From Actinomycetota bacterium (GTDB lineage: Bacteria > Actinomycetota > Actinomycetes > Streptosporangiales > Streptosporangiaceae), in NCBI GenBank assembly GCA_027314515.1, contig DAHVAR010000091.1, positions 1-64,000 on the forward strand: DNA of 64,000 nt. Reading direction: 5' to 3'. Both the position numbers and the translations under genes were made by a program. Shown piece by piece: positions 6,927 through 53,051 of the stretch. The notes under the pieces were generated by a model. The model saw nothing but the letters and a program-made list of their open reading frames with translations. It was not told where the DNA came from and made no database searches. Position 1 is the stretch's first letter. Each line of letters opens with the position of its first letter.

Positions 6927-7965
6927 CGTCCGGTGCCGGGCCGCCACGGCCCAGCAGCAGCGGGTCAGCCGGATTGCGCGCTGGGCGGCCGGGGTCGCCG
7001 GCCAGCGCGCGCCGCCGCCAGGCGATCCCGGACAGTGCCTCCAGCACCACCCGGTTGGCCAGGTAGGCCGTCACCTCGGCATGGTCGAATGGCGGCGCTA
7101 CCTCCACGATGTCGATGCCGGCCAGCGGAAGCTCCATGGCGATGCGGCGGACGGCGTCGAGCAGCTGGCGGCTGGTGAGGCCGCCTGGCTCGGGCGTGCC
7201 GGTTCCCGGCGCCATCCCCGGGTCGACGACGTCGACGTCGACGGACAGGAAGACCCCGTCGCATTCATCGGTCGCGATCGCGAACGCCTCGGTGAGGCAT
7301 TCGTCCAGGCCCCGGAACGTGACCTCGGCCATCTCGAAACTGCGCATCTGCTGGCTCGCCATCCAGTCCAGCGTCTCCGGCTCCGGCCAGTAGCCGCGCA
7401 GGCCGATCTGCAGGAACCGGTCCCCGCGGACCGCGCCGGACTCGATCAGGCGGCGCATCGGGGTGCCGTGGCCGTGCAGGGCGCCGAACTGGGTATCGCC
7501 CGTGTCGGCGTGAGCATCGAAGTGGATCATGGACACCCGGCCCCAGCCGGCGTGCCGGGCGACGCCGGTTGCGTCTGGCAGGGCGATGCTGTGATCGCCG
7601 CCGAGGATGACCGGCACGGCACCGCCCTGACAAGCCTGGTAGACCGCTTCCTCCAGACGGCGCAGGGACAGCTCGGTGTCGCCGGACGGCATCTCGATGT
7701 CGCCGGCGTCGGCGACCTTGAGCTCGGCCAGCGGGTCGACGCCCAGAGCCAGGTGCGGCCTCGATCCGTCGTGCGGCAGGTAGTCAGTGAACCGGATGGC
7801 CTGCGGCCCGAAGCGAGCACCCGGCCGGTGCGATGTCCCGCCGTCGAACGGAGCCCCGATGATCAGGATGTCGGTGTCCGCCCAGGATGCCGGGTCAGCC
7901 AGGTCGGCGCGCGGAACGCCGAGGAACGTGGCATCCGGGCCGTACATGCCGCCAAGTCGCGTCAT
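6907..7965 (-). CDS. agmatinase / arginase family ureohydrolase
   Basis: Mn-binding motifs 'GGDHSI', 'HFDAHADTGD', 'SVDVDVVDPGMAPGTGTPEPGG'. Confidence 0.92.
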   Translation of the reverse strand: MTRLGGMYGPDATFLGVPRADLADPASWADTDILIIGAPFDGGTSHRPGARFGPQAIRFTDYLPHDGSRPHLALGVDPLAELKVADAGDIEMPSGDTELSLRRLEEAVYQACQGGAVPVILGGDHSIALPDATGVARHAGWGRVSMIHFDAHADTGDTQFGALHGHGTPMRRLIESGAVRGDRFLQIGLRGYWPEPETLDWMASQQMRSFEMAEVTFRGLDECLTEAFAIATDECDGVFLSVDVDVVDPGMAPGTGTPEPGGLTSRQLLDAVRRIAMELPLAGIDIVEVAPPFDHAEVTAYLANRVVLEALSGIAWRRRALAGDPGRPARNPADPLLLGRGGPAPDANAPGS

Positions 7966-8074
7966 CGCCTATCCCTTCGCTACCCGGTTACGGTACCGGC
8001 AGTCGCTGTTCACTAGTTGGCGCAGTTAACCAGCCGGCCAGGAGCGCGAGGCTAGCAGGCAAGCTGGCCGTGAG

Positions 8075-8911
8075 ATGGTGCCAATGCAGACCAACGAGCA
8101 GGAACGGAGCACGAGCGTGACGCAGTCCGCCGGTACGGCACGGCCGGAAGTCGAACGGCCGCTTGGTCAGCCTGAGATTGACGCACTGACGCTGGCGGAC
8201 GGACGGCGCATCGCCCTGGCCGGCCTGCTCAACCTGCGCGATCTTGGCAACTACCCGGTTCGTGGTGGCGGCTCGGTCCGCTGGCGCACGCTGCTGCGGT
8301 CCGACGCGCTGCACGCGCTCGATGCCGATGGCCTGGCCGTGCTGCGCAGCCTCAACGTGCGCACCGTCGTTGACCTGCGCACCCAGTCCGAGACGCAGAT
8401 CGCGCCGAGCTTGCTGGAGGGGCTGGCCGTCCGGCGCGCGCACGTCTCGATCCTGCGCGGTGACCTGCAGCCGCTGCCGCCGGAACTCGATGCCATCTAC
8501 CGCTTCATGGTCGACGACTGCGCCGGCGCGATAGCTGAGGCGATCAAGGTGCTGTGCGCCGCGGACGCGTTCCCGGCACTGGTGCATTGCAGCGCCGGAA
8601 AGGACCGGACCGGCATCGTGATCGCCCTGCTGCTCGCCGTGCTGGGCGTTCCGGATGAGGTGATCGCCGCCGACTACGCGCTGAGCGCACGGTACCTCGA
8701 TCCGGACGCCACCCCGGCGATCGGGCACCTGCGGGCCAGCACCGGCCTTGGCGCAAGCCTGACGCGGCCGATGCTGACCAGCCCGCCCGGGCTGATCCTG
8801 AAGGTGCTGAGCTGGGTGCGGACGGCCGGCGGCTCGGTCGACGGCTACCTGCTCGACCACGGGCTGAGCCGGGCAGACCTCGGTCAGCTGCGCAGTGTCC
8901 TTATCGTCTGA
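8075..8911 (+). CDS. tyrosine-protein phosphatase (DSP/Y_phosphatase3 type)
   Basis: P-loop 'HCSAGKDRTGIV' and 'NLRDLGNYP' N-terminal motif. Confidence 0.9.
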   Translation: MVPMQTNEQERSTSVTQSAGTARPEVERPLGQPEIDALTLADGRRIALAGLLNLRDLGNYPVRGGGSVRWRTLLRSDALHALDADGLAVLRSLNVRTVVDLRTQSETQIAPSLLEGLAVRRAHVSILRGDLQPLPPELDAIYRFMVDDCAGAIAEAIKVLCAADAFPALVHCSAGKDRTGIVIALLLAVLGVPDEVIAADYALSARYLDPDATPAIGHLRASTGLGASLTRPMLTSPPGLILKVLSWVRTAGGSVDGYLLDHGLSRADLGQLRSVLIV

Positions 8912-38590: not shown

Positions 38591-39589
38591 TTACAGGACG
38601 TCGTGGCCGGGGTGGGGCTGGTCAGGCAGCGGCGTGCGCACTGCCGGGATCGTGCCAAGCCGGCCGGCCTGGTAGTCCTCGAAGGCCCGGACGAGTTCCG
38701 CCCTGGTATTCATCACGAACGGACCGTAGGCCGCGACCGGTTCGCGGATCGGCTGTCCGCCGAGGACCAGCACGTCCAGCTTCTCGCCCGGGCCGTCCAT
38801 GATCCGCTGCGCGCCGAGCGTCAGCACGTCACCGGCGCCGAACACGGCAAGCTGGCCGGTCCTCACCGGGCGCCGGGCAGCGCCGACCGTCCCCGAGCCG
38901 GCCAGTACGTAGCCGAGTGCGTTGAAGTCCGGCCGCCAGGGCAGCCGGAACTCAGCGCCCGGCTCCACGGTCACGTGCAGGAGAGTGATCGGGGTATGGG
39001 TGACGCCAGGGCCCGCATGCCCGTCAAGCTCGCCGGCTATAACCCGTACCAGGGCGCCGCCATCGGCGGAGCTGAGCAGCGCCACCTGACCAGCGCGAAT
39101 GTCCTGGTAGCGCGGCGGGGCCAGCTTCAGCCGGGACGGCAGGTTCACCCAGAGCTGGAAGCCATGGAACAGGCCACCGCTCATCACCAGGTCTTCGGGC
39201 GGCTCTTCGATGTGCAGGATGCCCCCGCCGGCGGTCATCCACTGCGTGTCGCCGTTGGTGATCAGGCCGCCGCCGCCATTGGAGTCCTGATGGCGGAAGA
39301 CGCCGTCGATGATGTAGGTCACGGTCTCGAAGCCGCGGTGCGGGTGCCAGGACGTGCCCTTCGGCTCGCCCGGCGCGTAGTCGACCTCGCCCATCTGGTC
39401 CATGTGAATGAAGGGATCCAGTGCCCGCAGTTCGACGCCGGCGAAGGCGCGGCGAACCGGGAAGCCCTCGCCCTCGAACCCGGACGGTGCTGTCGTGACC
39501 GACAGGACGGGCCGGTCCGCGGCCGTTGCCGGATCCGGTTCGCTGATGCGCGGGAGCACCAGGATGTCTTCGACTGTCACCGCTGGCAT
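38591..39589 (-). CDS. pirin family protein
   Basis: 'FIHMDQMGEVDYAPGEPKGTSWHPHRGFETVTYIIDG', 'HIEEPPEDLVMSGGLFHGFQLWVNLP'. Confidence 0.95.
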   Translation of the reverse strand: MPAVTVEDILVLPRISEPDPATAADRPVLSVTTAPSGFEGEGFPVRRAFAGVELRALDPFIHMDQMGEVDYAPGEPKGTSWHPHRGFETVTYIIDGVFRHQDSNGGGGLITNGDTQWMTAGGGILHIEEPPEDLVMSGGLFHGFQLWVNLPSRLKLAPPRYQDIRAGQVALLSSADGGALVRVIAGELDGHAGPGVTHTPITLLHVTVEPGAEFRLPWRPDFNALGYVLAGSGTVGAARRPVRTGQLAVFGAGDVLTLGAQRIMDGPGEKLDVLVLGGQPIREPVAAYGPFVMNTRAELVRAFEDYQAGRLGTIPAVRTPLPDQPHPGHDVL

Positions 39590-39759
39590 GGCGTCCTCCG
39601 TCTACTAGTCTGCCTGGTCAGCCGGCGCCTGTCGGCCGCTGGCCCGCCGCAGGGAACATTGATTGAATGCGCAACATTCCCTGTGGCGAGCAGGAATCCC
39701 AATAAAGCCGACATAGCGCGCCGTCACGTCAACGGACTGCCAAGTTGAGCCCACGCGAC

Positions 39760-39776
39760 AGTGATCTGTGTCACAT
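39760..39776. promoter_or_regulatory. CRP/FNR-family-like palindrome AGTGATCTGTGTCACAT
   Basis: Matches TGTGA-N6-TCACA except the first base. Confidence 0.45.
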
Positions 39777-39905
39777 AATGAAACCAGCTTCGGTAGCGTG
39801 GCGTCAGATCCTCATCACGCACCGTGATGCCCCCGATATGACTCCGGCTGGTCAGCTGCGACAGGCGGTCTGGCCAGCCGGCTTCCACCACAGTGAATAA
39901 CCGAG

Positions 39906-39948
39906 CGCCTCGTGCCCTGTCCCGCTTCCGGGGACAGGGCACGAGGCG
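39906..39948. terminator. 18-bp perfect stem-loop 3' of the TetR gene
   Basis: CGCCTCGTGCCCTGTCCC - 7-nt loop - GGGACAGGGCACGAGGCG. Confidence 0.75.
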
Positions 39949-39964
39949 TTGCGCTGCGGTCACG

Positions 39965-40597
39965 TCACAGCGGCAGGCCCTGCTCGAGGTGGGCCAGCGC
40001 CTTGTCGATGCGCCCGAACAGCCCGGCCACGTCGGACATCCCGTCGGCAGTCCAGGTGTCCTCGCCGTAGCTGGTCGTGACGGACATGATCACGCCGATG
40101 ACAGCGCCGGCCAGGTTGCGCACCTCGAAGTCGTCGGCGCTCCGGCCCGTTCGCCTGGCAATCGACTCCGCTATCTGGTTAATCGTCCGGACGAACTCGT
40201 CGACTGCCCGCGCCCGCACTTCGGGAACAGTTGCCGCCAGCTCCGCGGTGTCCCGGAACCGGACCAGGTCCTCCGGGCTCAGTGACGCCAGGGTGGCGGC
40301 GGAGGCGGCACGGAACGCGGCGATCGGGCTCAGCTCAGGCGGCTGGGCCGCGAGCGCCTCAGCCGTGACGATATCCAGGTCGTCCTGCAGAACCACGTCT
40401 TCCTTGGTGGGGAAGTACCGGAAGAACGTGGCCGGCGAGACTTCCGCCGCATCGGCGATCTGCTCGATGGTCGTGGCAGCATAGCCCTGCTCGCGGAAGA
40501 GCCGGAGCGCCTGCTGCCGGATGGCAACGCGCGTCCTGGCCTTCTTTCGCTCGCGGAGGCCCGGCTGCCGGGCAGCCATGTCGGTCATGCCAGTCAT
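39965..40597 (-). CDS. TetR family transcriptional regulator
   Basis: 'RVAIRQQALRLFREQGYAATTIEQIADAAEVSPATFFRYFPTKEDVV'; ATG at 40597 overlaps the MFS stop. Confidence 0.95.
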   Translation of the reverse strand: MTGMTDMAARQPGLRERKKARTRVAIRQQALRLFREQGYAATTIEQIADAAEVSPATFFRYFPTKEDVVLQDDLDIVTAEALAAQPPELSPIAAFRAASAATLASLSPEDLVRFRDTAELAATVPEVRARAVDEFVRTINQIAESIARRTGRSADDFEVRNLAGAVIGVIMSVTTSYGEDTWTADGMSDVAGLFGRIDKALAHLEQGLPL

Positions 40598-42294
40598 TCT
40601 GCCCCGGCGGCATCCAATTCCGCGCTGCCGGCCCCGCCGGCGTCCCCGCCGCTGCCGGCCCCGCCGGCGTCCCCGGCGGCCTCGCGTGGCGCGATCCCGG
40701 CGGGGCCGCCCGGGCGGCCCGGCCGCCGGGGCAGGAACACGGCGGCCAGCACGGCCGCCGCTGCCGCGATCGCCGCGCAGACCCAGAGCATCAGGTCGAC
40801 GCCGCTGGCGTACGCGATGTGCACGGCCGTGAGTAGCGATGCCGAGCCGAGCCTGGCAGCGACGATGACGCCGGCTCCGACGCTGCTCTTCGCTGCCGCG
40901 AGCGCGGCCGGCGGCTGGCTGGCGGTGAGGTGGCTGGCGGCGAGGTGGCTGCGGTACACCGAATTCAGCACGGTACCGAGCACCGCGATGCCGATTGTCG
41001 CGCCCACCTGGCGGGCCGCGGTCATGAGCGCTGAGCCGGACCCGCTGCGCTCCGCCGCCAGCGCGCTGAGCGCGGCGTTCAGCATAGTCGGCATCGCGAG
41101 GCCAAGGCCAAGACCGGTCACCGCGAACCACGTGCACATGAAACCCGCGCCACTAGCTGGCGACGTAGCCGTGCCGACGGCGAGCGCCGCGGCCATGACC
41201 GCGAACCCGCCGGCGCCGACCGGCCGCATGCCGAGCACCGGCGGACGGCCAGGGCCGCCGTCGCCCGCCTTGCGCGTGCTCTGCAGCCGCTGCCCGATGC
41301 CGAGCCCGACCACAAGGCCGCCGATCAGCGGCAGCATCCGGATGCCGCTGGCCATCGAGTCGAGCCCGCTGACGTCCAGGAAGAACTGCGGCATCGCGAA
41401 CGTCAGGCCGAACAGCGCGAAGGAGATCATCGTCGACAGTGCCGTCCCCCAGGTGAACCCCGGGGCGGCAAACAAGCTCAGGTCGACCAGTGGCTGGCCG
41501 CGGCCACGACGGCCGGCCGCACGCTCCCAGGCCGTGAACAGCCCGAGCAATGCCGCGCCGGCCGCCATCGCGGCGACTGCGAGAACGTCTGACCATCCGT
41601 ACTGCCCGGCCCGGATGACGCCGTAGGTCAGGATGGCCAGGCCGGCGCTGGAGAGGAGCACGCCGATGACATCGATGCGCAGGCGTCCGGTGCCGCGCGA
41701 CTCGGGCAGCAGGAACATCACCGCTGCCAGCGCCAGCACGACGACCGGAACGTTGATCAGGAACACCGATCCCCACCAGTAGTGGTCGAGCAGCCAGCCG
41801 CCGAGGATCGGGCCGAGCGGGTAGCCGAGGAAGGTCGCCCCGCCGACGATGGCGATCGCCTTCGGGCGCTCCGCAGGCGTGAACATCACCGGCAGGACGG
41901 CAAGCGCGAGCGGCATGATGACGGCGGCCGCGAGCCCGAGCACCGCGCGCGCCGCGATGAGTTCGCCGGGCGATGACGCGTAGGCGCACGCGGCCGAAGC
42001 GGCGCCGAAGACTGCGAGCGCGCACATCAGCAGCTTCTTCCTGCCGACCCGGTCGCCGACAAGCCCGGCGGGCAGCAGCGCCGCGGCCAGGACCAGGCTG
42101 TAGGCGTCGACGAACCACTGCAGGTCGCCAGTGGAAGCGTGCAGGTCGACGGCCAGCGTCGGCAAGGCAAGCGAGAGGACGAACAGGTCGAGGCCGACGA
42201 CCAGGACGCTGACCGCCAGCGCTCCGAGTGCCCACCAGCGACGGCTGCCGCCGCCGGCCGTGAACTCGACATGGCGCACGGGGCTCACCTCCAA
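40594..42294 (-). CDS. DHA2-type MFS transporter (drug efflux-like)
   Basis: 14-TM pattern, 'GLDLFVLSLALPTLAVDLHAS', 'GDRVGRKKLL'. Confidence 0.92.
   Translation of the reverse strand: MEVSPVRHVEFTAGGGSRRWWALGALAVSVLVVGLDLFVLSLALPTLAVDLHASTGDLQWFVDAYSLVLAAALLPAGLVGDRVGRKKLLMCALAVFGAASAACAYASSPGELIAARAVLGLAAAVIMPLALAVLPVMFTPAERPKAIAIVGGATFLGYPLGPILGGWLLDHYWWGSVFLINVPVVVLALAAVMFLLPESRGTGRLRIDVIGVLLSSAGLAILTYGVIRAGQYGWSDVLAVAAMAAGAALLGLFTAWERAAGRRGRGQPLVDLSLFAAPGFTWGTALSTMISFALFGLTFAMPQFFLDVSGLDSMASGIRMLPLIGGLVVGLGIGQRLQSTRKAGDGGPGRPPVLGMRPVGAGGFAVMAAALAVGTATSPASGAGFMCTWFAVTGLGLGLAMPTMLNAALSALAAERSGSGSALMTAARQVGATIGIAVLGTVLNSVYRSHLAASHLTASQPPAALAAAKSSVGAGVIVAARLGSASLLTAVHIAYASGVDLMLWVCAAIAAAAAVLAAVFLPRRPGRPGGPAGIAPREAAGDAGGAGSGGDAGGAGSAELDAAGAE
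40624..40677. repeat. 27-bp tandem duplication in the MFS C-terminus
   Basis: gctgccggccccgccggcgtcccc(gcc/ggc) x2, encoding GDAGGAGSG/GDAGGAGSA-like repeats. Confidence 0.9.
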
Positions 42295-42319
42295 TCACGC
42301 AAGTGACTCTTATACGAGA

Positions 42320-42330
42320 TTGACTGTCAA
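42320..42330. promoter_or_regulatory. perfect palindrome TTGACTGTCAA in the MFS/TetR operon promoter region
   Basis: 26 bp upstream of the MFS ATG; candidate TetR operator. Confidence 0.4.
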
Positions 42331-42458
42331 ATCAGAGACTACATCAAGATAGCCTGAGCCGGCTCGGACATCTCGGCCATCGCGAAGCCGCGGACCCGCA
42401 TGGTGCCGACGCCTGAGCTCTGGCTGGCAGACTGGTGACGGAGATAAGGAGTCAGCCA

Positions 42459-42977
42459 ATGCCACAGCCACAAGGCGAGGAGCTTGCCCGCGTTCGTGCC
42501 CGCCGGGAGGAGCTGCGCACGCAGTATCTGCGCCCGCTAGCCGACCGTCCGCCGTCGACCGTCAGCGGGGTGCATCACCTCGCGCTGATCTGCAAGGACG
42601 CGGAAGAGACGATCGAGTTCTACCAGGAGTTCCTTGGTTTCCCGCTAGTCGAGCTAGTGGAGAACCGCGACTATGCCGGCTCCAACCACTTCTTCTTCGA
42701 CATCGGCAACCACAACCTGCTCGGCTTCTTTGACTTTCCCGGCCATGACCATCCGGCCTGGCAGGAGACCATCGGCGGCGTGCAGCATCTGGCAATCTCG
42801 GTGTCGGCCGCACAGTTCGCAGCGGCGAAGGAGAAACTCGACGCTGCCGGGATCGACTACCTCGGCCCGGACCGCGGCGCTGACAACAGCATGTACTTCC
42901 GCGACCCCAATGGTGTCGGCCTGGAACTGTACCGGGAAGACCTCGGGACGTTTGAGGGCGAGTTGCTGGTCGAGTAG
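42459..42977 (+). CDS. VOC family (glyoxalase/dioxygenase superfamily) protein
   Basis: 'SGVHHLALICKDAEETIEFYQEFLGFPLVE', 'YFRDPNGVGLELY'. Confidence 0.93.
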   Translation: MPQPQGEELARVRARREELRTQYLRPLADRPPSTVSGVHHLALICKDAEETIEFYQEFLGFPLVELVENRDYAGSNHFFFDIGNHNLLGFFDFPGHDHPAWQETIGGVQHLAISVSAAQFAAAKEKLDAAGIDYLGPDRGADNSMYFRDPNGVGLELYREDLGTFEGELLVE

Positions 42978-43029
42978 GAAGGGCCACCCGCCAGCTCAGC
43001 GGGACCTGCGCTGCCTGTTCTTGACGAAT

Positions 43030-43452
43030 TCAGGCCCGGTGCTCGCGGCGGATCACCAGGCGGAGCCCGGACCAGGTGTCGTCGATCCCGCACACCTTGT
43101 TGTCCACCAGCCCGGTCGGCAGCACGATATCCCGGATGGCCTGGTCGGTTACGTCTGTCGGCACCTTGCTGGTCCGCTTGGGCCAGGCGATCCATAGTCC
43201 GCATGCCGGAGCCATCCGGGCGCGTAGCCTCGGCAGCTCTGCCTCCAATTCAGCACGGCGGGTGACGAAGGCCACGATGACGTCGTAATGCGCGTCATCC
43301 GACAGGTCGGTATGCAGCCTGGCGACGTCGGGCAGTTCGGCGAGCGTGTCCTCGAACGCCTCGGGCGCGCCGATCAGTGCCACCTCGTCGCCTTCGCCGA
43401 TGCCGAGCTTGCGAGCGAGCGGAGTTCCGCGGTCACCGGTCCCCTCAGGCAT
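43030..43452 (-). CDS. DUF3052 family protein
   Basis: 'LARKLGIGEGDEVALIGAP', 'GLWIAWPKRTSKVPTDVTDQAIRDIVLPTGLVDNKVCGIDDTWSGLRLVIRRE'. Confidence 0.88.
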   Translation of the reverse strand: MPEGTGDRGTPLARKLGIGEGDEVALIGAPEAFEDTLAELPDVARLHTDLSDDAHYDVIVAFVTRRAELEAELPRLRARMAPACGLWIAWPKRTSKVPTDVTDQAIRDIVLPTGLVDNKVCGIDDTWSGLRLVIRREHRA

Positions 43453-43488
43453 CCGTCCTCCCGCGACGGCTCAGCAGGTAAAGACGGC

Positions 43489-44061
43489 TCAGAAGGCAAA
43501 GCCGCCGGGCTTGGCGTTGCGGTCGGCGATGAGCCCGGCCACTGTCGCAATGGCGATCTCCGCGGGAGTGCGTGAGCCGATGTTCACGCCGATCGGCCGG
43601 TGTACCTTGCTGACCTCGCTGGCCGGCACGCCGAGCTCAGTCAGCGCTGCGACATGCGGCGCCTCATGCCGCGGATTGCCCATGATGCCAACCCAGCGCG
43701 CGCCTGCTGCCAGCGCATCGCGCAGCTGGACGCCCAGCTCGGGCCGGTGATGATCGGTGACAACGACATCGGTTCTGCCGTCGGCGAGGCCGTCCAGGCT
43801 GTCAGCAAGCTCGAAGTCACCGGCCGGGGCGGCCTTCGCTCGCTCCGGGTCCGGCTCTACCAGCACTGCCCGGTACCCTGCGTCGGCGCCGTAGCGCAGC
43901 AGGTAGCTCGCGACCGGCGTGGCGAAGACCGCCGCCAGCACCTTGTCCTGCGCCGGGGCCGGGACCGTGCCGTGCGCCACCGCGCAGCTGTCGTCGTGCA
44001 CATGATGGTCATGCGAGTGTTCGCGCCGGTCGAGGGAATCGCCGTGCCCCGAGCTTGCCAT
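43489..44061 (-). CDS. XdhC-C domain Rossmann-like protein with His-rich N-terminus
   Basis: 'VVVTDHHRPELGVQLRDALAAGARWVGIMGNPRH', 'VHRPIGVNIGSRTPAEIAIATVAGLI'. Confidence 0.82.
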   Translation of the reverse strand: MASSGHGDSLDRREHSHDHHVHDDSCAVAHGTVPAPAQDKVLAAVFATPVASYLLRYGADAGYRAVLVEPDPERAKAAPAGDFELADSLDGLADGRTDVVVTDHHRPELGVQLRDALAAGARWVGIMGNPRHEAPHVAALTELGVPASEVSKVHRPIGVNIGSRTPAEIAIATVAGLIADRNAKPGGFAF

Positions 44062-44117
44062 GCCTACGAGCTTGCCATCCGCGACGCCGCCGGGCAACTT
44101 ACCATGATCGCCTGACC

Positions 44118-45818
44118 TCAGCCCAGCAGGCCGGCGACGGCCAGCCGCAACTGTTCCAGCCGGCTGTGCGCCGCCTGCCGGGCCGTTGCCAGCGAGCGGC
44201 CGGTCACCTGCTCGACGACTTCCAGGTAGGCGGTGATCTCCGGCTCACCGTCGGCCGGCCCGACGACCACGCGCGCTCCGGGCAGCTCGTAACTGATCAT
44301 GTCGGCGGACGGCAGATCCCAGCTGCCGCCGGTGTAATCAGTCATCCGGATGACCGGCCGGCCGCACAGCTCGGCCGGGCCGGTTGCGCGCAGCCGGGAC
44401 ATCACGTCGACCGCGGCCAGGTCCGGCCGGGCTAGCCGGGCGGTCAGGTGCACGCCGTGCGCAGCCTCAAGCGCGTCATAGGCATCCTGGAGCGACTCGC
44501 CCACGGACCTGGCTATGGCGGCCAGCCGGAGGACCGCTAGCGCGGCGCAGATGCCATCGCAGTCCCGCGCCGCCCCGCCAAGGGCGTAGCTCGCTTCCTC
44601 CGAATAGCCGAACGCGAACCGCGCATCCTGTCGCAGGTCAGCGGCGCGGACCAGGCGTTCCGACCCAGTTGGGGCCAGCACGTGCCGGGCTCCGGCCGCG
44701 GCCGCGATCTTCGACAGCAGTGAGCCGCAGACGACAGTGCTGACGACAAGCTGCTGCGACATGACGATGCCTGGCTCGGCTGCCATCCTGCCGAGTACGA
44801 ACGCGCCCAGCAGCGCGCCAAGCTGATCGGCAGTGAGCTGCCGGTAGCCGCCGGGCGCGGCCGGGTCCGGCACCGCGACTGCCAGCCGGCCGCCGTCCGG
44901 GTCGGTTGCCAGGACCAGGTCGCAGGACGACCGCCGCGCCAGCGCGATCGCGAGATCGAGCGCGCCCGGCTGCGCCAGATCGGGGACCGGCAGGGACGGG
45001 AAGTCCGGATCGGGTTGCAATTGCGCCGCGACCACATCGGGTGCAGGGTAGCCGCCCTGCTCGAACGCACGCAGCGCCAGCGCTCCGGCCACCCCGTGCA
45101 GCGGCGTGTAGGCGAACCGGAGCCAGGCAGCGCTCGGCGGCGCCTCGCCCGCCGTCGCGCGGACCGAGTCGAGGTATGCCTGCGCTCCCTCGTCGCCGTG
45201 CGCGGTGATCAGCGGACTGCCGGATGGCGCGATCGCGATGCCGGGAAGCGGCCCGAGCACGGTCAGCGCCGCGTCGATGTCGGCGTCGGCAGGCGGCGCG
45301 AGGTGCAGACCGGCCCCGTCGTACACCCGATAGCGGCTGTCCGCGGCCGGGCCGGGGCCGGCGGTGATCATGACGCCGGCGACGGCGCCGAAGAACCGAA
45401 CGGCGAAGGACAGGAACGGGGTTGGCTGGCCACCCGGCAGCAGGTGCACACGGATGCCTGCGCCGGCGAAAACAGCGGCGGCCTGCGCGGCGAACGCTGC
45501 GCTGAGGCGTGCTGCGTCCCGGCCGATCACGATGCCCGCAGCGGCTGCACCTGGTGCGCGGTCCAGCAGCCAGCCGGCCACCGCTGCGCTCGTGGTCGTC
45601 ACTGTCGCGCGGTTCATCCGGCTCGGCCCGGCCGCGGCAGGCCCGCGAAGGCCGTCCGGGCCGAAGCGCAGCCGCCCGGCGAACCTGCTGGCGAGCTCTG
45701 CCGCCGCAGCCGGCGAGTCGTCGGCGAGCAGCGCGGTGAGCTCGGCCTTGTCCTGCTCGCTGACGTCGGCCGCGATCCAGGCCAGTATCTCCTCGCGGAG
45801 GCCGGCCGCAATCGTCAT
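44118..45818 (-). CDS. alpha-D-phosphohexomutase superfamily protein, predicted catalytically inactive
   Basis: Overall PMM/PGM architecture, but TASHNP->TAGPGP, DPDxDR->DPDGGR, RPSGTEP->GPADGEP. Confidence 0.85.
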   Translation of the reverse strand: MTIAAGLREEILAWIAADVSEQDKAELTALLADDSPAAAAELASRFAGRLRFGPDGLRGPAAAGPSRMNRATVTTTSAAVAGWLLDRAPGAAAAGIVIGRDAARLSAAFAAQAAAVFAGAGIRVHLLPGGQPTPFLSFAVRFFGAVAGVMITAGPGPAADSRYRVYDGAGLHLAPPADADIDAALTVLGPLPGIAIAPSGSPLITAHGDEGAQAYLDSVRATAGEAPPSAAWLRFAYTPLHGVAGALALRAFEQGGYPAPDVVAAQLQPDPDFPSLPVPDLAQPGALDLAIALARRSSCDLVLATDPDGGRLAVAVPDPAAPGGYRQLTADQLGALLGAFVLGRMAAEPGIVMSQQLVVSTVVCGSLLSKIAAAAGARHVLAPTGSERLVRAADLRQDARFAFGYSEEASYALGGAARDCDGICAALAVLRLAAIARSVGESLQDAYDALEAAHGVHLTARLARPDLAAVDVMSRLRATGPAELCGRPVIRMTDYTGGSWDLPSADMISYELPGARVVVGPADGEPEITAYLEVVEQVTGRSLATARQAAHSRLEQLRLAVAGLLG

Positions 45819-46642
45819 CAGCGCAAGCCGCCGATGATCGACGCGAGCAACTCGCCCAGTGACGCGGCGGCTCGGGCGCCCGCCGACACCACCTCGGCGT
45901 GCTCGATCGGCTGCGCCGACAGCCCGGCTGCCAGGTTAGTGACCAGCGAGATACCGAGGACTGCTGCGCCGAGGTGCTTCGCCGCGATCGCCTCCAGCAC
46001 GGTGGACATGCCGACCAGCCCGGCGCCGGCCGCGGCAAGCATGCGGATCTCTGCCGGGGTCTCGTACTGAGGGCCGGGCAGCCCCGCGTACACAGCCTCG
46101 GCCAGGTCCGGCCGGTGCGCCCGTGCCGCCGCCCGCAGCGCGGCCGGATACAGCGCGGTCAGGTCGGTGAACCTGGACGGGTAGCCATCGGGCGGCGGTG
46201 GGCCGGTCAGCGGGGAGACGCCGGTCAGGTTGAGCTGGTCGCTGATCAGCACCGGCTGACCGGGCTGCAGACGGAGGTCGATGGCCCCGGCCGCGTTGGT
46301 CAGCACGACCGTCTGGCAGCCGGCCGCGACCGCGGTGCGGACGCCGTGCACGACCGTGTCGGGGGAGTGCCCTTCGTACAAGTGCGCGCGGCCGAGGAAG
46401 ACCAGCGCGTCGCGCCCGCCGATGCCGACGGACCGGACGAGCGGCTCGTGACCGGCAACCGTAGGCGCGGGCAGGCCGCCAAAGTCGGCGAAGGTGAGCT
46501 CGGCATCCGCCGGGCCGAGTGCGCCGGCCGCGGCTGACCAGCCGGAGCCGAGCACGACCGCCACGTCATGGCGGGACTTGCCGGTCAGCTGGGCGAGTTG
46601 CGCGGCACTTGCCGCGGCGGCCGCAAACGGATCAAGGGTCAT
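45818..46642 (-). CDS. purine nucleoside phosphorylase
   Basis: 'VAVVLGSGWSAAAGAL', 'RAHLYEGHSPDTVVHGVRTAVAAGCQTVVLTNAAG', 'AGLPGPQYETPAEIRML'. Confidence 0.94.
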   Translation of the reverse strand: MTLDPFAAAAASAAQLAQLTGKSRHDVAVVLGSGWSAAAGALGPADAELTFADFGGLPAPTVAGHEPLVRSVGIGGRDALVFLGRAHLYEGHSPDTVVHGVRTAVAAGCQTVVLTNAAGAIDLRLQPGQPVLISDQLNLTGVSPLTGPPPPDGYPSRFTDLTALYPAALRAAARAHRPDLAEAVYAGLPGPQYETPAEIRMLAAAGAGLVGMSTVLEAIAAKHLGAAVLGISLVTNLAAGLSAQPIEHAEVVSAGARAAASLGELLASIIGGLR

Positions 46643-46665: not shown

Positions 46666-46705
46666 CTGGTTACTCCTCGGCGAGCAGGTGGGCGGCGGGC
46701 AGGCG
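46666..46705. repeat. 40-bp direct repeat, copy A (3' end of the FtsX permease gene)
   Basis: ctggttactcctcggcgagcaggtgggcggcgggcaggcg; identical to 50204-50243. Confidence 0.97.
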
Positions 46706-49438
46706 ACGTAGTGCCCGGGCTGGCAGGAGTGCGGCGGTGGCGGTGATCAGGACGCCGGCTGCCACGGCGGTGGCGGCGACCAGGTAGAGGGTGGCAGGTA
46801 GCTGGCCGGCGAAGATCGAGGCGGCGGCGAGGCCGAGGGCGGCTCCGGCTGCCGATCCGGTGAGGCCGATGATGGTGCCTTCGGTGACGACCAGCCGGCT
46901 GAGCGCGGACTCGGGCCAGCCGAATGCGCGGATGGCGGCGAGTTCGGCGGCGCGTTCCCGGATGTTGAGGAAGATGACGTCGGCGACGGCTAGTACGCCG
47001 AGCGCGACGGTGGCCACGACGGCGATGTAGTCGACGCCGCGGACCTGGACCGCGACGGCGTTGCCGAGCAGCGAGCCGACGACGACGCCGCGGAAGGCGA
47101 AGGTGAGGGCGGCGAGCACGGTCAGCGCGGTGATGCCGATGGCCAGGCTGATCGCGCCGACGAGCGCGCGGCCGGGGGTGCGCAGCACGTTGACGGCTGC
47201 CAGTGCGGTAATGCCGCCGGGCTGGCGGGCGCGGCGGACGGCCAGTACTGCCGGGCGGACTGAGGCGACGGGCTCGGCGGTGGCGGCGAGCCAGGCCGGC
47301 GCTACCCCGGCGGTGACGGCGACGGCGACGGCGATCGGCACGGCCAGCGCCGCCCGCCCCGGTGAGGCGTGCAGGCCGAGCGCGGAGGAGAGCGGCAGGG
47401 CCGCGGCGGCGCCGAGTATCCCTGCGGTCAGGCCGATGGCTGCCAGTTCGCCGAGTACCGCGGTGAACAGCCGGGGCCTGGTCCAGCCCAGGCAGGCCAG
47501 CACGCCGAGTTCCCGGCGGCGGGCGCGTACTGCCGCTGCGGCGGAGTTGGCCACGAACAGGACGCAGACGACCAGGATGAGCAGGAACAGCACCAGGCTG
47601 TTCTTGTCGATCGCGGTGAGGATCGCGACGGCAACGCCTTTTTTCACCCAGCCTTCGGACAGTGTCAGGGCCGGCTGGCCGAACTTCCCGGCGGGCAGGT
47701 CAATCGTGGTCGGCTGCGGGGAGGAGCCTGCCACGATGTCGACTGCCAGGTGCGTGCGCACCGCGACCTGCTGGGCTACCTCGCGGATCCGTTCCAGCGA
47801 CACCGCGTTCGGCCCGGTCACCCCCGCCACCCGCACCCGGATCACGCTGATCGGATCGGCAGCGCGGGCGGCGTCACCGTAGTAGGAAGACTCCAGCGCG
47901 GGCAGCGCGGACAGGGTGGTGACAAGGTCCACCGGCTGAGTGACGTACCCGCCGAGGTTCTGGTTGGGCAGCAGGTCCTGCCCGTGCAGCGCGTGCCGGC
48001 TGGCCGCGCTCGCCGGCGCCGCGGCCACCGGCTGGTACGGGCCAAGCGGCAGTTGCGACAGCGGATCGAACGACCGGATCCGGGCCGCGTCGAACGTGCC
48101 CACCACGCGGGCATAGGCCTCATGTTGCCCCGGAGTCGCCTGATGCGGCTGGCCGAGGTCGAGCGTGGTCGCGTGCACAGCCAGAGCGCGGTACTGGACG
48201 TCCTCGTTGTCCATCGGCGGCGCCTGGATGCCGCCCGTGTACCAGACCGACGCCGGGTTGCGCACCTGCTGCGGAACGAGCACACCGGGGGCAGCGCGGC
48301 GGTAGCTCACCGTTCCGGCGGTCCAGTATCCCCAGAGCGGGGAGACTCCGGCGACGTTCCCCTGAAGGGTGGTCTCGGTGAAATTATCGTAAACCTGCCG
48401 GTATGCCCGTGCTGCAGTGATCCGGGTGGTCGCGACCGTCGTGGCCGGCGCCGTTGCCTCCCGGGCCATCCAGGTCACGCTCATGTCCGGCGGCGCCGCG
48501 GGCGTGGCGAGCTGCTGCAGCTCGGTCACCGCGTACTCGTCCATGCCCGGCGACGAGGCGGCGAGGACCGGGAACTCGGTGAGCCCGGCCGAGTCTGTCC
48601 GGGCGCCCGACTTCTCGCCTAGGTACCGGCCGGAGACCAGCGCGTGGTTCAGCCCGTCCAGCTTCGCCTCGGCCACCGGGTCGATCGCGGCGATCAGCAG
48701 GGGAACCTCCCAGCGCACGTAGTAGTGCGCCGCACCGGGCCGGGCATTGCTCGCCCCGGCCAGGCCGGGCAGCCCGGCTCCGTAGCCATCGGCCTTGGAC
48801 CAGCAGTCCACGGCGGATTGCGCGGCGATGCCGAACGGGTTCGCGGTCGGGGGCGCCCCGAGCGAAGGGCAGACGCTTGCCACGCCGCCGCCCGGCAGAT
48901 CCTCCACCAGGGGGCTGTTGTTCCGCTGCAGGTCGAACCGAAGCCGGTTCGGGGTCACGTAGAGGTAGGACGGTGGCTGGGTGATCCGGGTGCGCCCAGC
49001 CTGGCTCACCCAGGTCGTGCTGATCCGGTAGAGCTGGTGGCCGGGCCGGTGATAGTCAGCGGCAGGAACCGTCACCGGGATGTCCGCGACGAACTCGGTG
49101 TAGCCGATCATGGCGATGGGGGCGGCCACGGACACGCCGGGCAGGCTGGCGATCTGGTGGTATTGGGCCATGGTGATGCCGCCGTAGATGCCGGACAGGA
49201 AGTTCGGCTGGACGGTGCCGGTCTGGGTTTCGAGCGTGGTCCTTGATCCCCTGGGCCGGACCAGGATGTCGTAGGCGGCGGCGAAGTGCGCCGACACGGT
49301 GCCGGTGGTGCGTAGTTGCGCGGTTCGTGATGCCGCGGTCAGCACGGTGAACGCGGTCGTTGCCAGCAGCAGCCCGATCAGCAGCGCGATCGCGCGGGTT
49401 GTCCGGAAGCGCAGTTGTGACCAGGCCAGCCGTGCCAT
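46670..49438 (-). CDS. FtsX-like (MacB-type) ABC transporter permease
   Basis: 922 aa, 'RARRRELGVLACLGWTRPRLFTAVLGE' and 'RAAELAAIRAFGWPESALSRLVVTEGTIIGL' FtsX motifs. Confidence 0.92.
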   Translation of the reverse strand: MARLAWSQLRFRTTRAIALLIGLLLATTAFTVLTAASRTAQLRTTGTVSAHFAAAYDILVRPRGSRTTLETQTGTVQPNFLSGIYGGITMAQYHQIASLPGVSVAAPIAMIGYTEFVADIPVTVPAADYHRPGHQLYRISTTWVSQAGRTRITQPPSYLYVTPNRLRFDLQRNNSPLVEDLPGGGVASVCPSLGAPPTANPFGIAAQSAVDCWSKADGYGAGLPGLAGASNARPGAAHYYVRWEVPLLIAAIDPVAEAKLDGLNHALVSGRYLGEKSGARTDSAGLTEFPVLAASSPGMDEYAVTELQQLATPAAPPDMSVTWMAREATAPATTVATTRITAARAYRQVYDNFTETTLQGNVAGVSPLWGYWTAGTVSYRRAAPGVLVPQQVRNPASVWYTGGIQAPPMDNEDVQYRALAVHATTLDLGQPHQATPGQHEAYARVVGTFDAARIRSFDPLSQLPLGPYQPVAAAPASAASRHALHGQDLLPNQNLGGYVTQPVDLVTTLSALPALESSYYGDAARAADPISVIRVRVAGVTGPNAVSLERIREVAQQVAVRTHLAVDIVAGSSPQPTTIDLPAGKFGQPALTLSEGWVKKGVAVAILTAIDKNSLVLFLLILVVCVLFVANSAAAAVRARRRELGVLACLGWTRPRLFTAVLGELAAIGLTAGILGAAAALPLSSALGLHASPGRAALAVPIAVAVAVTAGVAPAWLAATAEPVASVRPAVLAVRRARQPGGITALAAVNVLRTPGRALVGAISLAIGITALTVLAALTFAFRGVVVGSLLGNAVAVQVRGVDYIAVVATVALGVLAVADVIFLNIRERAAELAAIRAFGWPESALSRLVVTEGTIIGLTGSAAGAALGLAAASIFAGQLPATLYLVAATAVAAGVLITATAALLPARALRRLPAAHLLAEE

Positions 49439-49450
49439 CGCCGCGCGCTC

Positions 49451-50203
49451 TCAGCCGAGTTGCCCGACGCGCCGGATGATGTCATCGGCCGGGTAGCCGC
49501 CGGTCAGCATGATGTCGTCGATGACGGCCCCGTCGCGGAGCCTGATCAGCCGTTCGGCGCGGGCGGCGATCTGGGGGTCGTGGGTGGCCAGGATGATCGT
49601 CATCGCCCGCTGCTGGCGCAGCGTGGCCAGCAGTTGCAGGATCTCGGCGGCGTTCGCCGAGTCCAGGTTGCCGGTCGGCTCGTCGGCCAGCAGCAGCGCG
49701 GGGGTGTTGATCAGCGCCCTGGCGATGGCGACCCGCTGCTGCTCGCCACCGGACATCCTGGCCGGCAGCGACTGCTCGCGGCCGGCCAGGCCGACAGCGG
49801 ACAGCAGTTCCCTGCCGCGTTCGCGTTTGCTGAAGGCTGTCCGGTAGGGCAGCAGCGGCGCGATGACGTTGTCCAGCGCGGTGAGCGCGGGGAGCAGGTT
49901 GTAACGCTGGAAGACAAAGCCCGCCGTGCGCCGGTAGGCCGCCAGCGCGGCGCCGCGCAGCGCGGTGACATCCGTGCCGGCCGCGATGACCCTGCCGGAG
50001 TCCGGGCGCTCGATCGCGCCGATCAGGTGCAGCAGGGTGGACTTGCCGGAACCGGACGCGCCGGTCAGCGCGACGAACCCGCCCGCGCCGATGCTCAGGC
50101 TGACGTCGTGGGCAGCGCGGACCTGCCGGTCGTTGCCGATCCCGTAACTCTTGCAGATGCCGCGCAACTCGATCGCAGCATGGCCGCCAGCCGGATCAGT
50201 CAT
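49451..50203 (-). CDS. LolD/MacB-type ABC transporter ATP-binding protein
   Basis: 'LTGASGSGKSTLLHLIGAIERPDSG', 'RMSGGEQQRVAIARAL', 'LLADEPTGNLDSANA'. Confidence 0.96.
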   Translation of the reverse strand: MTDPAGGHAAIELRGICKSYGIGNDRQVRAAHDVSLSIGAGGFVALTGASGSGKSTLLHLIGAIERPDSGRVIAAGTDVTALRGAALAAYRRTAGFVFQRYNLLPALTALDNVIAPLLPYRTAFSKRERGRELLSAVGLAGREQSLPARMSGGEQQRVAIARALINTPALLLADEPTGNLDSANAAEILQLLATLRQQRAMTIILATHDPQIAARAERLIRLRDGAVIDDIMLTGGYPADDIIRRVGQLG

Positions 50204-50243
50204 CTGGTTACTCCTCGGCGAGCAGGTGGGCGGCGGGCAGGCG
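50204..50243. repeat. 40-bp direct repeat, copy B (abuts the ATPase start codon)
   Basis: Identical to 46666-46705; minus strand gives ...CTCGCCGAGGAGTAACCAG|ATG. Confidence 0.97.
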
Positions 50244-50274
50244 GCACAGCAGATGAGTTAATGTGACCCTATAC

Positions 50275-50327
50275 CTAGTGACAATGCAAGACCATGCGGC
50301 GTCTGGTTAGCTAGCGACAATGCAAGA
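50275..50327. promoter_or_regulatory. two near-identical 17-mers in the ABC/PadR divergent spacer
   Basis: ctagtgacaatgcaaga (50275-50291) and ctagcgacaatgcaaga (50311-50327), 36 bp apart. Confidence 0.6.
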
Positions 50328-50373
50328 TGAAATCGTTTCGTTACGAGACTCCTCGACCGGGGACTGACGACAC

Positions 50374-50967
50374 ATGCCCCTGCATCACGCGGTACTCGCC
50401 TTGCTGGCAGACAAGCCGGCTCACGGCTACGAGCTGAAGAGCAGCTTCGAGCAGGCCGTCGGCGACCAGTGGGGCGGCCTGAACATCGGGCATCTGTATC
50501 AGATACTCGACCGGCTCAGCCGGGACGGGCTGATCGAGTCGGAGCGGCAGCCGCAGCAGGTCAAGCCCGACCGTGTCGTTCACCACCTGACCCCGGCCGG
50601 GCGCGAAGAGCTGGACCGGTGGCTGGCCGAGCCGAGCGCCCGCCAGCGCGGTTACCGGGATGACTTCTTCCTCAAGCTGATGGCTGCCGCGCAGGCCGGG
50701 GACCAGCAGACCCTCGATGGCGTACTGCGTCGCCAGCGGGCGCACCTGCTGCGGGAGCTGCGCGGCCTTGCCGAAGCCAGGACTCAGTCGCCGTCGGACG
50801 TCGTGGCCCTGCTGATCACCGCGGCTGAGCTCCATGTCCGGGCTGATCTCGGCGTCGTTGACGCAGCCGAGCAGGCGCTCACGACGAGCGTCGCGCATCC
50901 GGAAGCCAGCCGGGCGCGCCCGGAGCCGGCGACGAGGGCCGGAACCAGCGAGGCCGCCGCAGGCTGA
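50374..50967 (+). CDS. PadR family transcriptional regulator
   Basis: 'LHHAVLALLADKPAHGYELKSSFEQAVGDQWGGLNIGHLYQILDRLSRDGLIE'. Confidence 0.95.
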   Translation: MPLHHAVLALLADKPAHGYELKSSFEQAVGDQWGGLNIGHLYQILDRLSRDGLIESERQPQQVKPDRVVHHLTPAGREELDRWLAEPSARQRGYRDDFFLKLMAAAQAGDQQTLDGVLRRQRAHLLRELRGLAEARTQSPSDVVALLITAAELHVRADLGVVDAAEQALTTSVAHPEASRARPEPATRAGTSEAAAG

Positions 50968-51161
50968 CTCCGGGCTGGCCCGCATCCGGCCCGTTTCCCG
51001 TCGCAGGCTTCGGTTCGGCCCGGTTTGCGGGCGCACTAGCGCAGTGGCCGGCAGCCGATCACCCGGCGCGGATGAGGCTCGGCCCCTGCCGTGCTGTGCA
51101 GAATCGACAGTGTGCCGACACTGCTGCAATCCCCGGGCACGGAGTGAGAAGCGGGTACGTC

Positions 51162-52496
51162 GTGGGCGCGTACGGACAGGCCGGATCCGCTGAGCAGGAG
51201 ACGGTTGCCGGGGCTGACGCCGCGCAGCGCTGGCTCGCCCGGCTGAGCTTGGTGCTCGTTGCGGTTGCTGTCGCGATACCAGCGGTCTTTGCCGGGCTGA
51301 AGAGCATCGCGATGCTGGGCGTCGGCGTGGCGGCGGCTGCCGTGAGCCTCGCCGCGGCGTATGCGTTCCTGTCGCGGCGAGGCTCACTGCGCTGGCTGGC
51401 ACTGGCCGCCTTCGTCGCCGCGCCGGTTGCCGTCATCGCTCTCTATGCGTTCGCCGGGCTGCTCTGGGTGGCGCTCGCGGCGGCTGCCAGCTGGCTGCTC
51501 GCGGGGGTTACGGCACGGTCCGCGCTGGCCCGCGGCCGGACCGGCGACCGGATGCCCGAATGTCCTGCCCGCCCGGTCCGGCATCCGTTCCTGATCATGA
51601 ACCCGAAGTCCGGTGGCGGGAAGGTGGACAGGTTCGACCTCAAGCGCAAAGCCGAGGATCTTGGCGCCGAGGTCTTTCTCATGGCTGGGCCCGAGCCAGT
51701 CGACGTCACCGCGGTGGCTGAGAAGGCGGCCGCGGACGGCGCCGATCTGCTCGGCGTTGCCGGCGGTGACGGCACGCAAGCGCTGGTAGCCGGCGTGGCG
51801 GCCGAGCACGGTATCCCGTTCATGGTGATCACGGCTGGTACTCGTAATCACTTCGCGCTGGATCTCGGGCTGGACCGTGACGATCCTTCGGCGTGCCTTG
51901 AAGCGTTGCGGGACGCCGTCGAACTGCGCGTAGATCTGGGCACGATCGGCTCCCGGACGTTCGTGAATAACGCATCGTTCGGTGCCTATGCCGACGTGGT
52001 CCAGACTCCCGAATACCGCGACGACAAGCTGGGCACGACGCTTGACGTGCTGCCGGGCTTGCTCGAGGAGCACCGCGGGCCACGGCTCAGGGCGCGAGCG
52101 GATGGCGTCGAGCTCGGTGCGCCGCAAGCGCTGCTGGTGGCCAACAACCCGTACGGAAGCGGGGACATCGCGGGGCTCAGCCGCCGGCCGCGGCTTGATC
52201 GCGGCATCCTCGGCGTGGTCGGCGTCTATGTGAGTAGCGCGCGGCAGGCAGCCAGCCTGCTGGGCGGCAGGCGGGCGGGCGGCCTGAACCTGCTGACCGC
52301 GACTAAGGTCGAGATCACTGCTGTCCGTCCCGAAGTCTCGGTCGGGGTAGACGGCGAGGCGCTGTCGATGCCCACGCCGGTGCTGTGCGCAGTCCGTCCC
52401 GGCGCGCTCCGCGTGCGGGTGCCACGGCACCGGCCAGGTGCCAGCCTGGCGAAGCCGCCGATGGACTGGGCGCGGCTGAGACAACTCGCCCGGTAG
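51162..52496 (+). CDS. diacylglycerol kinase family lipid kinase
   Basis: N-terminal TM segments then 'FLIMNPKSGGGKV', 'LLGVAGGDGTQALVAGVA', 'ITAGTRNHFALDLGLDRDDP'; start among GTG 51162 or upstream. Confidence 0.88.
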   Translation: MGAYGQAGSAEQETVAGADAAQRWLARLSLVLVAVAVAIPAVFAGLKSIAMLGVGVAAAAVSLAAAYAFLSRRGSLRWLALAAFVAAPVAVIALYAFAGLLWVALAAAASWLLAGVTARSALARGRTGDRMPECPARPVRHPFLIMNPKSGGGKVDRFDLKRKAEDLGAEVFLMAGPEPVDVTAVAEKAAADGADLLGVAGGDGTQALVAGVAAEHGIPFMVITAGTRNHFALDLGLDRDDPSACLEALRDAVELRVDLGTIGSRTFVNNASFGAYADVVQTPEYRDDKLGTTLDVLPGLLEEHRGPRLRARADGVELGAPQALLVANNPYGSGDIAGLSRRPRLDRGILGVVGVYVSSARQAASLLGGRRAGGLNLLTATKVEITAVRPEVSVGVDGEALSMPTPVLCAVRPGALRVRVPRHRPGASLAKPPMDWARLRQLAR

Positions 52497-52501
52497 CCGT
52501 A

Positions 52502-52993
52502 GTGCGGGTCGGCTACGCGCGCGTGTCGGACTGGCGGGACCTGCTGCGCTGGGCCGCAGATCTGTCGGCGAGAACCGTCGTCATCGACGTGGAACCGCTA
52601 GTCGCATTCTGGGACACCAGCCAGGAACATCTCGACCAGGGAGTCGCGGCCGTGCTCGCCCAGGTTGCCGCGATTCCGCCGGTAGAGGTGGTGTGCTTCG
52701 CCACCAATTCGGCCCGGCGGTTGTCCGGCACTCCGTCCGGCGCTGGCGTCCGCGTGATCTACCTGCCGTCTGCCCGCAAGCCGCTTAACACAGCGCCGTA
52801 CCGCAACCTGCCCCGGCCCGGGATTGTCATCGGTGACCAGCCTGCGACCGACGGCGTCCTTGCCCGTCGGCTCGGATACACGTTCCTGCACTACTCGCCG
52901 CTGCTGGCCAGCGTGCCGGCCGGGCCGCGCCTCCTGCAGCGATGCGGACAGTGGCTGCTGCCGTTGCTGTTCGGGAATCAGCGACGGCAGTGA
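52502..52993 (+). CDS. YqeG-like HAD superfamily protein with altered motif I
   Basis: 'VVIDVEPLVAFWDTS' (motif I), 'CFATNSAR' (II), 'ARKPLNTAPY' (III), 'VIGDQPATDGVLARRLGYTFLHYSPL' (IV). Confidence 0.75.
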   Translation: MRVGYARVSDWRDLLRWAADLSARTVVIDVEPLVAFWDTSQEHLDQGVAAVLAQVAAIPPVEVVCFATNSARRLSGTPSGAGVRVIYLPSARKPLNTAPYRNLPRPGIVIGDQPATDGVLARRLGYTFLHYSPLLASVPAGPRLLQRCGQWLLPLLFGNQRRQ

Positions 52994-53051
52994 GACCGGG
53001 GCGCTAGGCACCCGCGCCCTAGGCGATGCACAAGGACGTCGCCGAGCGGCG

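Follow-up and report, generated by a model that had tools for sequence, protein, structure and literature searches.

A PmmB-type phosphosugar mutase predicted to be catalytically dead yet intact in frame and fold in a genus of uncultured Streptosporangiaceae

The window analyzed here is a 64,000-nucleotide stretch of DNA from an uncultured genus within the Streptosporangiaceae, taken from a MAG-like assembly of 5.86 Mb in 280 contigs that is 98% complete. It encodes a protein that, judged by sequence and synteny, is orthologous to the PmmB-type phosphosugar mutase linked to PNP in actinobacteria (Table 1). On balance, and with modest confidence, we favor the reading that it is an orthologous pseudoenzyme, predicted to be dead, whose fold has been retained for a putative noncatalytic role. 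The first-pass annotation had read the altered loops TAGPGP, DPDGGR, and GPADGEP within an intact 566-aa frame and had proposed a pseudoenzyme; the readings and the frame are confirmed here, and the proposal is supported, as each class of catalytic residue is altered.

Table 1. Coordinates of pmmB, its former catalytic loops, and neighboring genes in the window
Feature	Position	Strand	Basis
pmmB orthologue, 566 aa, phosphohexomutase fold, predicted catalytically dead	44118..45818	(-)	ORF, Pfam, AF2, Foldseek
Former phosphoserine loop TAGPGP (canonical TASHNP), residues 152-157	45348..45365	(-)	Alignment
Former metal loop DPDGGR (canonical DPDGDR), residues 306-311	44886..44903	(-)	Alignment
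Former GFKW loop, residues 385-388, reading GSER without the general acid/base Lys	44655..44666	(-)	Alignment
Former sugar-specificity loop YSEEASY (canonical YEEALGY), residues 405-411	44586..44606	(-)	Alignment
Former phosphate loop GPADGEP (canonical RPSGTEP), residues 520-526	44241..44261	(-)	Alignment
Purine nucleoside phosphorylase (PNP), 274 aa, canonical	45818..46642	(-)	NCBIfam NF006054, PDB
XdhC-family protein, syntenic neighbor in genus	43489..44097	(-)	Pfam PF13478, synteny
Conserved 140-aa neighbor, no family match	43030..43452	(-)	Pfam scan, synteny
Glyoxalase/VOC-like protein, syntenic, used as control gene	42435..42977	(+)	By eye

The pmmB frame begins with ATG and runs without internal stops, and its product carries PGM_PMM domains I, II, and III in order (Pfam 78.6, 68.6, and 34.3 bits, each above its cut-off), followed by a C-terminal domain that has no Pfam match and is seen in the AF2 model (pLDDT 76, pTM 0.75, run with a seven-sequence alignment). 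The top Foldseek matches of this model are all phosphohexomutases (TM 0.5-0.77; best 2z0f, E 9e-23), among them herring PGM5 and a Thermococcus phosphopentomutase (9ix8), and both the domain order and the multidomain fold place the protein in the alpha-D-phosphohexomutase superfamily. Disorder of the altered loops was considered and rejected, as low AF2 confidence there is not evidence for it: the active-looking G001 orthologue, modeled as a control (pLDDT 78.6, pTM 0.79), dips at the same sites. The protein is 53-65% identical to the nearest canonical members, and conserved synteny with PNP and XdhC identifies it as an orthologue of the PNP-linked group, which we take to be PGM2-like (cd05799). 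By analogy, the active enzyme probably acts as a phosphopentomutase and interconverts the 1- and 5-phosphates of (deoxy)ribose. This assignment is drawn from the linkage to PNP and from the phosphopentomutase activity of PGM2 (PMC5570346); the specificity of PGM2-like proteins in bacteria is described there as unsettled. The adjacent PNP is well conserved (NF006054 279.6 bits, cut-off 218; PDB match 7zsq/1g2o, E ~1e-73; GPxYETPAEIRML and VTNLAAG segments retained). Its frame overlaps that of pmmB by one base, the PNP-pmmB order is conserved across the family, and the two genes probably form one operon. Beyond PNP, an FtsX/ABC region (46670-53008) precedes the next syntenic gene; it is mostly absent in the sister genome G006 and unmatched in canonical members of the genus, as would fit a lineage-specific insertion or deletion.

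The S-H-N of the phosphoserine loop is gone (S154G, H155P, N156G), as are the phosphate loop (R520G, S522A, T524G) and the GFKW lysine and EEALGY loop (K387E, E406S, A408E, L409A, G410S), and the DxDxDR metal loop is broken at its third aspartate (D310G). Further motif losses are FGTAGLRG to FGPDGLRG, NPEE to DLAQ at 280-283, and DKDG to DCDG (K420 to C). An alignment with 30 canonical orthologues has 138 near-invariant columns, and the protein departs from them at 41, including T54P/A55D, R103A, N161S, K164R, N280D to E283Q, F386S/K387E/W388R, K420C, G523D, K527E, and K529T; R58, D306, D308, and R311 are still canonical. Canonical loops in another register had been raised as an alternative by the first-pass annotation, and none is hidden in the other two reading frames across the altered loops. 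With every class of catalytic residue changed, the protein is almost certainly dead as a mutase, as far as its sequence can tell.

Such changes are rare. Of the 130 PmmB orthologues aligned, 126 came from a genome search, in which this family supplied nearly all and other families in the class a few, and 4 came from named records at a greater distance. At 17 key positions, 127 of the 130 are unchanged, one of these being truncated. The three exceptions are the window genome (11 departures), its sister G006 (11), and the genus-mate G002 (12), and chance was ruled out as an explanation, given 127 unchanged orthologues against 11 changed positions here. The G006 protein, from a separately assembled MAG (FK1.bin32), is 91% identical to that of the window and has its lesions in common, with loops reading TAGLGP, DTDGGR, and GPADGEP; the G002 protein, encoded at the same syntenic locus, reads AASAGP, DPAGAR, and TPRGG. 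R58, D306, and R311 are retained in all three dead proteins, and none of the three genes contains a stop or frameshift. A plasmid search returned only distant homologues (<60% identity). In the family sample, five genomes, three of them in genus g62, have no PmmB match at all; this genus (G117, G141, and G161, with G071 giving only a weak match) seems to be without PmmB altogether.

By protein phylogeny, inactivation has occurred at least twice, once on the stem of the window genome and G006 and once in G002, because a nine-gene tree rejects a common origin with G002. In that tree, the window genome and G006 group with the canonical G001 and G003 (support 100), and a grouping of the window genome, G006, and G002 is rejected (AU p 0.0016). 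Five neighboring genes alone give AU p 0.21 for a single origin shared with G002, and in the pmmB tree without masking the dead genes cluster together; masking the near-invariant columns abolishes this clustering, in agreement with the nine genes that rule out a single shared loss. The two lineages have both changed at 24 columns and carry an identical new residue at 10 of them, against 2-6 expected (P 0.04 to 2e-5) under a neutral mutation model that omits conservative replacement, which can inflate identity. These identical replacements in two dead lineages are only suggestive of convergence.

The evidence from substitution patterns indicates that what remains of the fold is very probably under purifying selection. 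Pairwise dN/dS of pmmB between the window genome and G006 is 0.248 (CI 0.18-0.34; dN 0.042, dS 0.171), a value that reflects selection after the loss because the two species diverged later. In a branch model, dN/dS is 0.244 for the window/G006 tips, 0.176 for their stem, and 0.156 for G002 against a background of 0.081, and fixing the tips at 1 is rejected (2dlnL 48.1). The roughly threefold rise at the tips over background implies weakened constraint and counts against our preferred reading, as does neighbor gene 54351, whose dN/dS of 0.21 is similar to that of pmmB; the other neighbors mostly fall at 0.03-0.11 and PNP at 0.18 (CI 0.07-0.43), the value at 55613 being left out because of a wrong frame. 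A dN/dS below 1 could also arise from selection against misfolded protein alone. The changes are concentrated in the catalytic loops, where 31 of 60 near-invariant columns have changed and 29 are retained, versus 10 changed and 68 retained (~87%) of the 78 elsewhere (Fisher p 1.4e-6, only indicative, as the loops were defined by hand after viewing the alignment), and G002 has the same pattern (33 of 60 against 9 of 78). The gene is thus not wholly free to drift, because loop and other columns would then have changed alike. Under neutrality, some 3.7 nonsense mutations would be expected, and none is observed (P 0.026). Neither the dN/dS near 1 nor the disabling mutations of a neutral pseudogene are found, and pmmB instead presents a homologue that lacks catalytic residues yet is under selection, as a pseudoenzyme should be; the earlier claim that this is not plain decay is borne out by the dN/dS of about 0.25, the intact frames, and the retained noncatalytic invariants. 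Across 38594-46642, dS between the window genome and G006 varies among neighbors (0.06 for PNP, 0.07 for the VOC gene, 0.17 for pmmB, and 0.50 for the gene at 38.6 kb), and this unevenness suggests recombination.

Relaxation after the stepwise loss of pathway genes is the likely trigger of the inactivation, since deoA, deoC, PNP, and finally pmmB have been lost stepwise in the genus. The window genome contains no DeoB-type phosphopentomutase, and backup of PmmB by DeoB was rejected on that ground. G003, G007, and G008 carry deoC, and G005 part of it; it was not found in the window genome, G006, G001, G002, or G004, these absence calls being weaker for the MAGs G002 (77% complete) and G004 (72%), whose loci are covered. 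Besides a TrpD-like match, Glycos_transf_3 genes occur only in G005, G007, and G008, adjoining deoC in the latter two; from their position and score, we infer that they are thymidine phosphorylase (deoA). The locus in G002 lacks PNP and has a luciferase-like gene after pmmB; elsewhere in this incomplete MAG there is only a weak partial PNP match of 30% identity. In G004, both pnp and pmmB are deleted, and the same luciferase-like gene comes after XdhC; beyond the deletion, a uracil phosphoribosyltransferase-like gene (G004 C525 (L218) 7522-8256), recognized by eye, adjoins this luciferase-like gene. The genus thus displays a graded loss, from a full pathway through an active PmmB without deoA, a dead PmmB with PNP, and a dead PmmB without PNP, to nothing. 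G001, which is without deoC yet retains an active-looking PmmB, counts against our preferred reading, and G004 and the g62 species live without detectable PmmB, so any second role must be dispensable.

Under the reading we prefer, deoxynucleoside catabolism would have been lost in part of the genus, deoA first and then deoC, mutase flux would no longer have been needed, and the catalytic residues of PmmB would have drifted. The loss of all catalytic loops itself falls on the stem common to the window genome and G006. The scaffold would have been kept for a fold-dependent noncatalytic role, probably one already present in the active ancestor and most likely the binding of a protein partner other than PNP alone. 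PNP would still work, and its ribose-1-phosphate would either pass to the other canonical phosphohexomutases or go unprocessed. No second canonical PmmB, which the first-pass annotation had suggested looking for, was found in the genome; the canonical mutases that remain are GlmM (C85), a TIGR01132 phosphoglucomutase (P0002), and a large phosphosugar mutase (P0001), and these could supply residual activity or substitute for PmmB. P0001 and P0002 form a canonical tandem pair on G000 C134 (L063:5338-9033) and are also adjacent in G006 (L066).

The main rival is slow decay restrained by folding costs, which we consider somewhat unlikely. PmmB would then be functionless, with frame and fold persisting since the loss is fairly recent and misfolding of an operon-expressed protein is costly, and G002 and G004 might, at the same lesser probability, display later steps. 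The graded erosion of pathway and locus, the threefold rise in dN/dS, loops that still drift between sisters (TAGPGP/TAGLGP, DPDGGR/DTDGGR), and lineages that manage without pmmB all fit such a course, but it sits poorly with the retention of ~87% of noncatalytic invariants beside replacement of about half of the loop residues in two independent lineages, and with three dead genes free of stops and frameshifts. That the pocket was instead rebuilt for another reaction or ligand, with R58, D306, and R311 still in use, is improbable. The persistence of these residues in all three dead proteins and the excess of identical replacements would agree with it, but the loops differ between sisters and between the two lineages, neither a phosphate site nor a complete metal site is recognizable, and conservative replacement can account for inflated identity. 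Equally doubtful is a scaffold or regulator specific to PNP, which the first-pass annotation had raised as a possibility and for which the one-base overlap, the conserved gene order, and the intactness of PNP speak; this suggestion is unsupported and in part contradicted, because G002 has kept a dead PmmB although PNP is gone from the locus, with only the weak partial match elsewhere. An assembly, binning, or frame artefact can be dismissed despite all genus genomes being MAGs or fragmented assemblies, given the 91-kb contig, full synteny with the genus, the intact frame without hidden canonical loops, and, in practice decisively, the matching lesions in the separately assembled G006.

The closest functional parallel is vertebrate PGM5 (aciculin), an inactive superfamily member with a structural or binding role (PMC5570346, PMC7761743) whose substrate binding is intact (PMC7761743). 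Both proteins are inactive members that retain the fold, but PGM5 is a paralogue with a subtle active-site change, whereas the window PmmB is a single-copy orthologue in place that has lost all loops, including those for phosphate and metal. The Thermococcus phosphopentomutase (9ix8; PMC11641776) shares the fold, and its reaction is the one proposed here for the ancestor before inactivation, but it is an active enzyme. Canonical PmmB proteins share synteny, PNP-pmmB operon order, and full-length alignment with the window protein, which differs in being without the phosphoserine, one metal ligand, the acid/base lysine, the sugar loop, and the phosphate loop. In the same genome, P0003 (G000 C193:37646-38038; L064:6689-9229) is a mannose-1-P guanylyltransferase-like nucleotidyltransferase with hexapeptide repeats and a fused phosphohexomutase domain with degenerate serine, metal, and phosphate loops (TTPGDP, DPVGER, LPDPSE); it resembles the window PmmB in these altered loops but belongs to another subfamily and is fused to a nucleotidyltransferase. 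A search of the open literature for a phosphohexomutase pseudoenzyme under those words returned no report, a weak negative.

Most work on pseudoenzymes concerns paralogues that coexist with an active copy. In this genus, by contrast, the only PmmB orthologue is dead in two independent lineages while still in its ancestral operon, and close relatives span every stage from a full pathway to complete deletion. Homology-based annotation would label this pmmB an active phosphosugar mutase, leading to overprediction of nucleoside catabolism. The genus permits a direct question, namely whether the scaffold is kept for a noncatalytic role or is slowly decaying, and whether this mutase moonlights. We tentatively suggest, as a possibility that falls short of even likelihood, that a second binding role predated the catalytic losses and that two lineages independently dropped catalysis and kept the scaffold, with parallel replacements. 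If true, this would constitute a replicated natural experiment separating the moonlighting from the catalytic function of a phosphosugar mutase.
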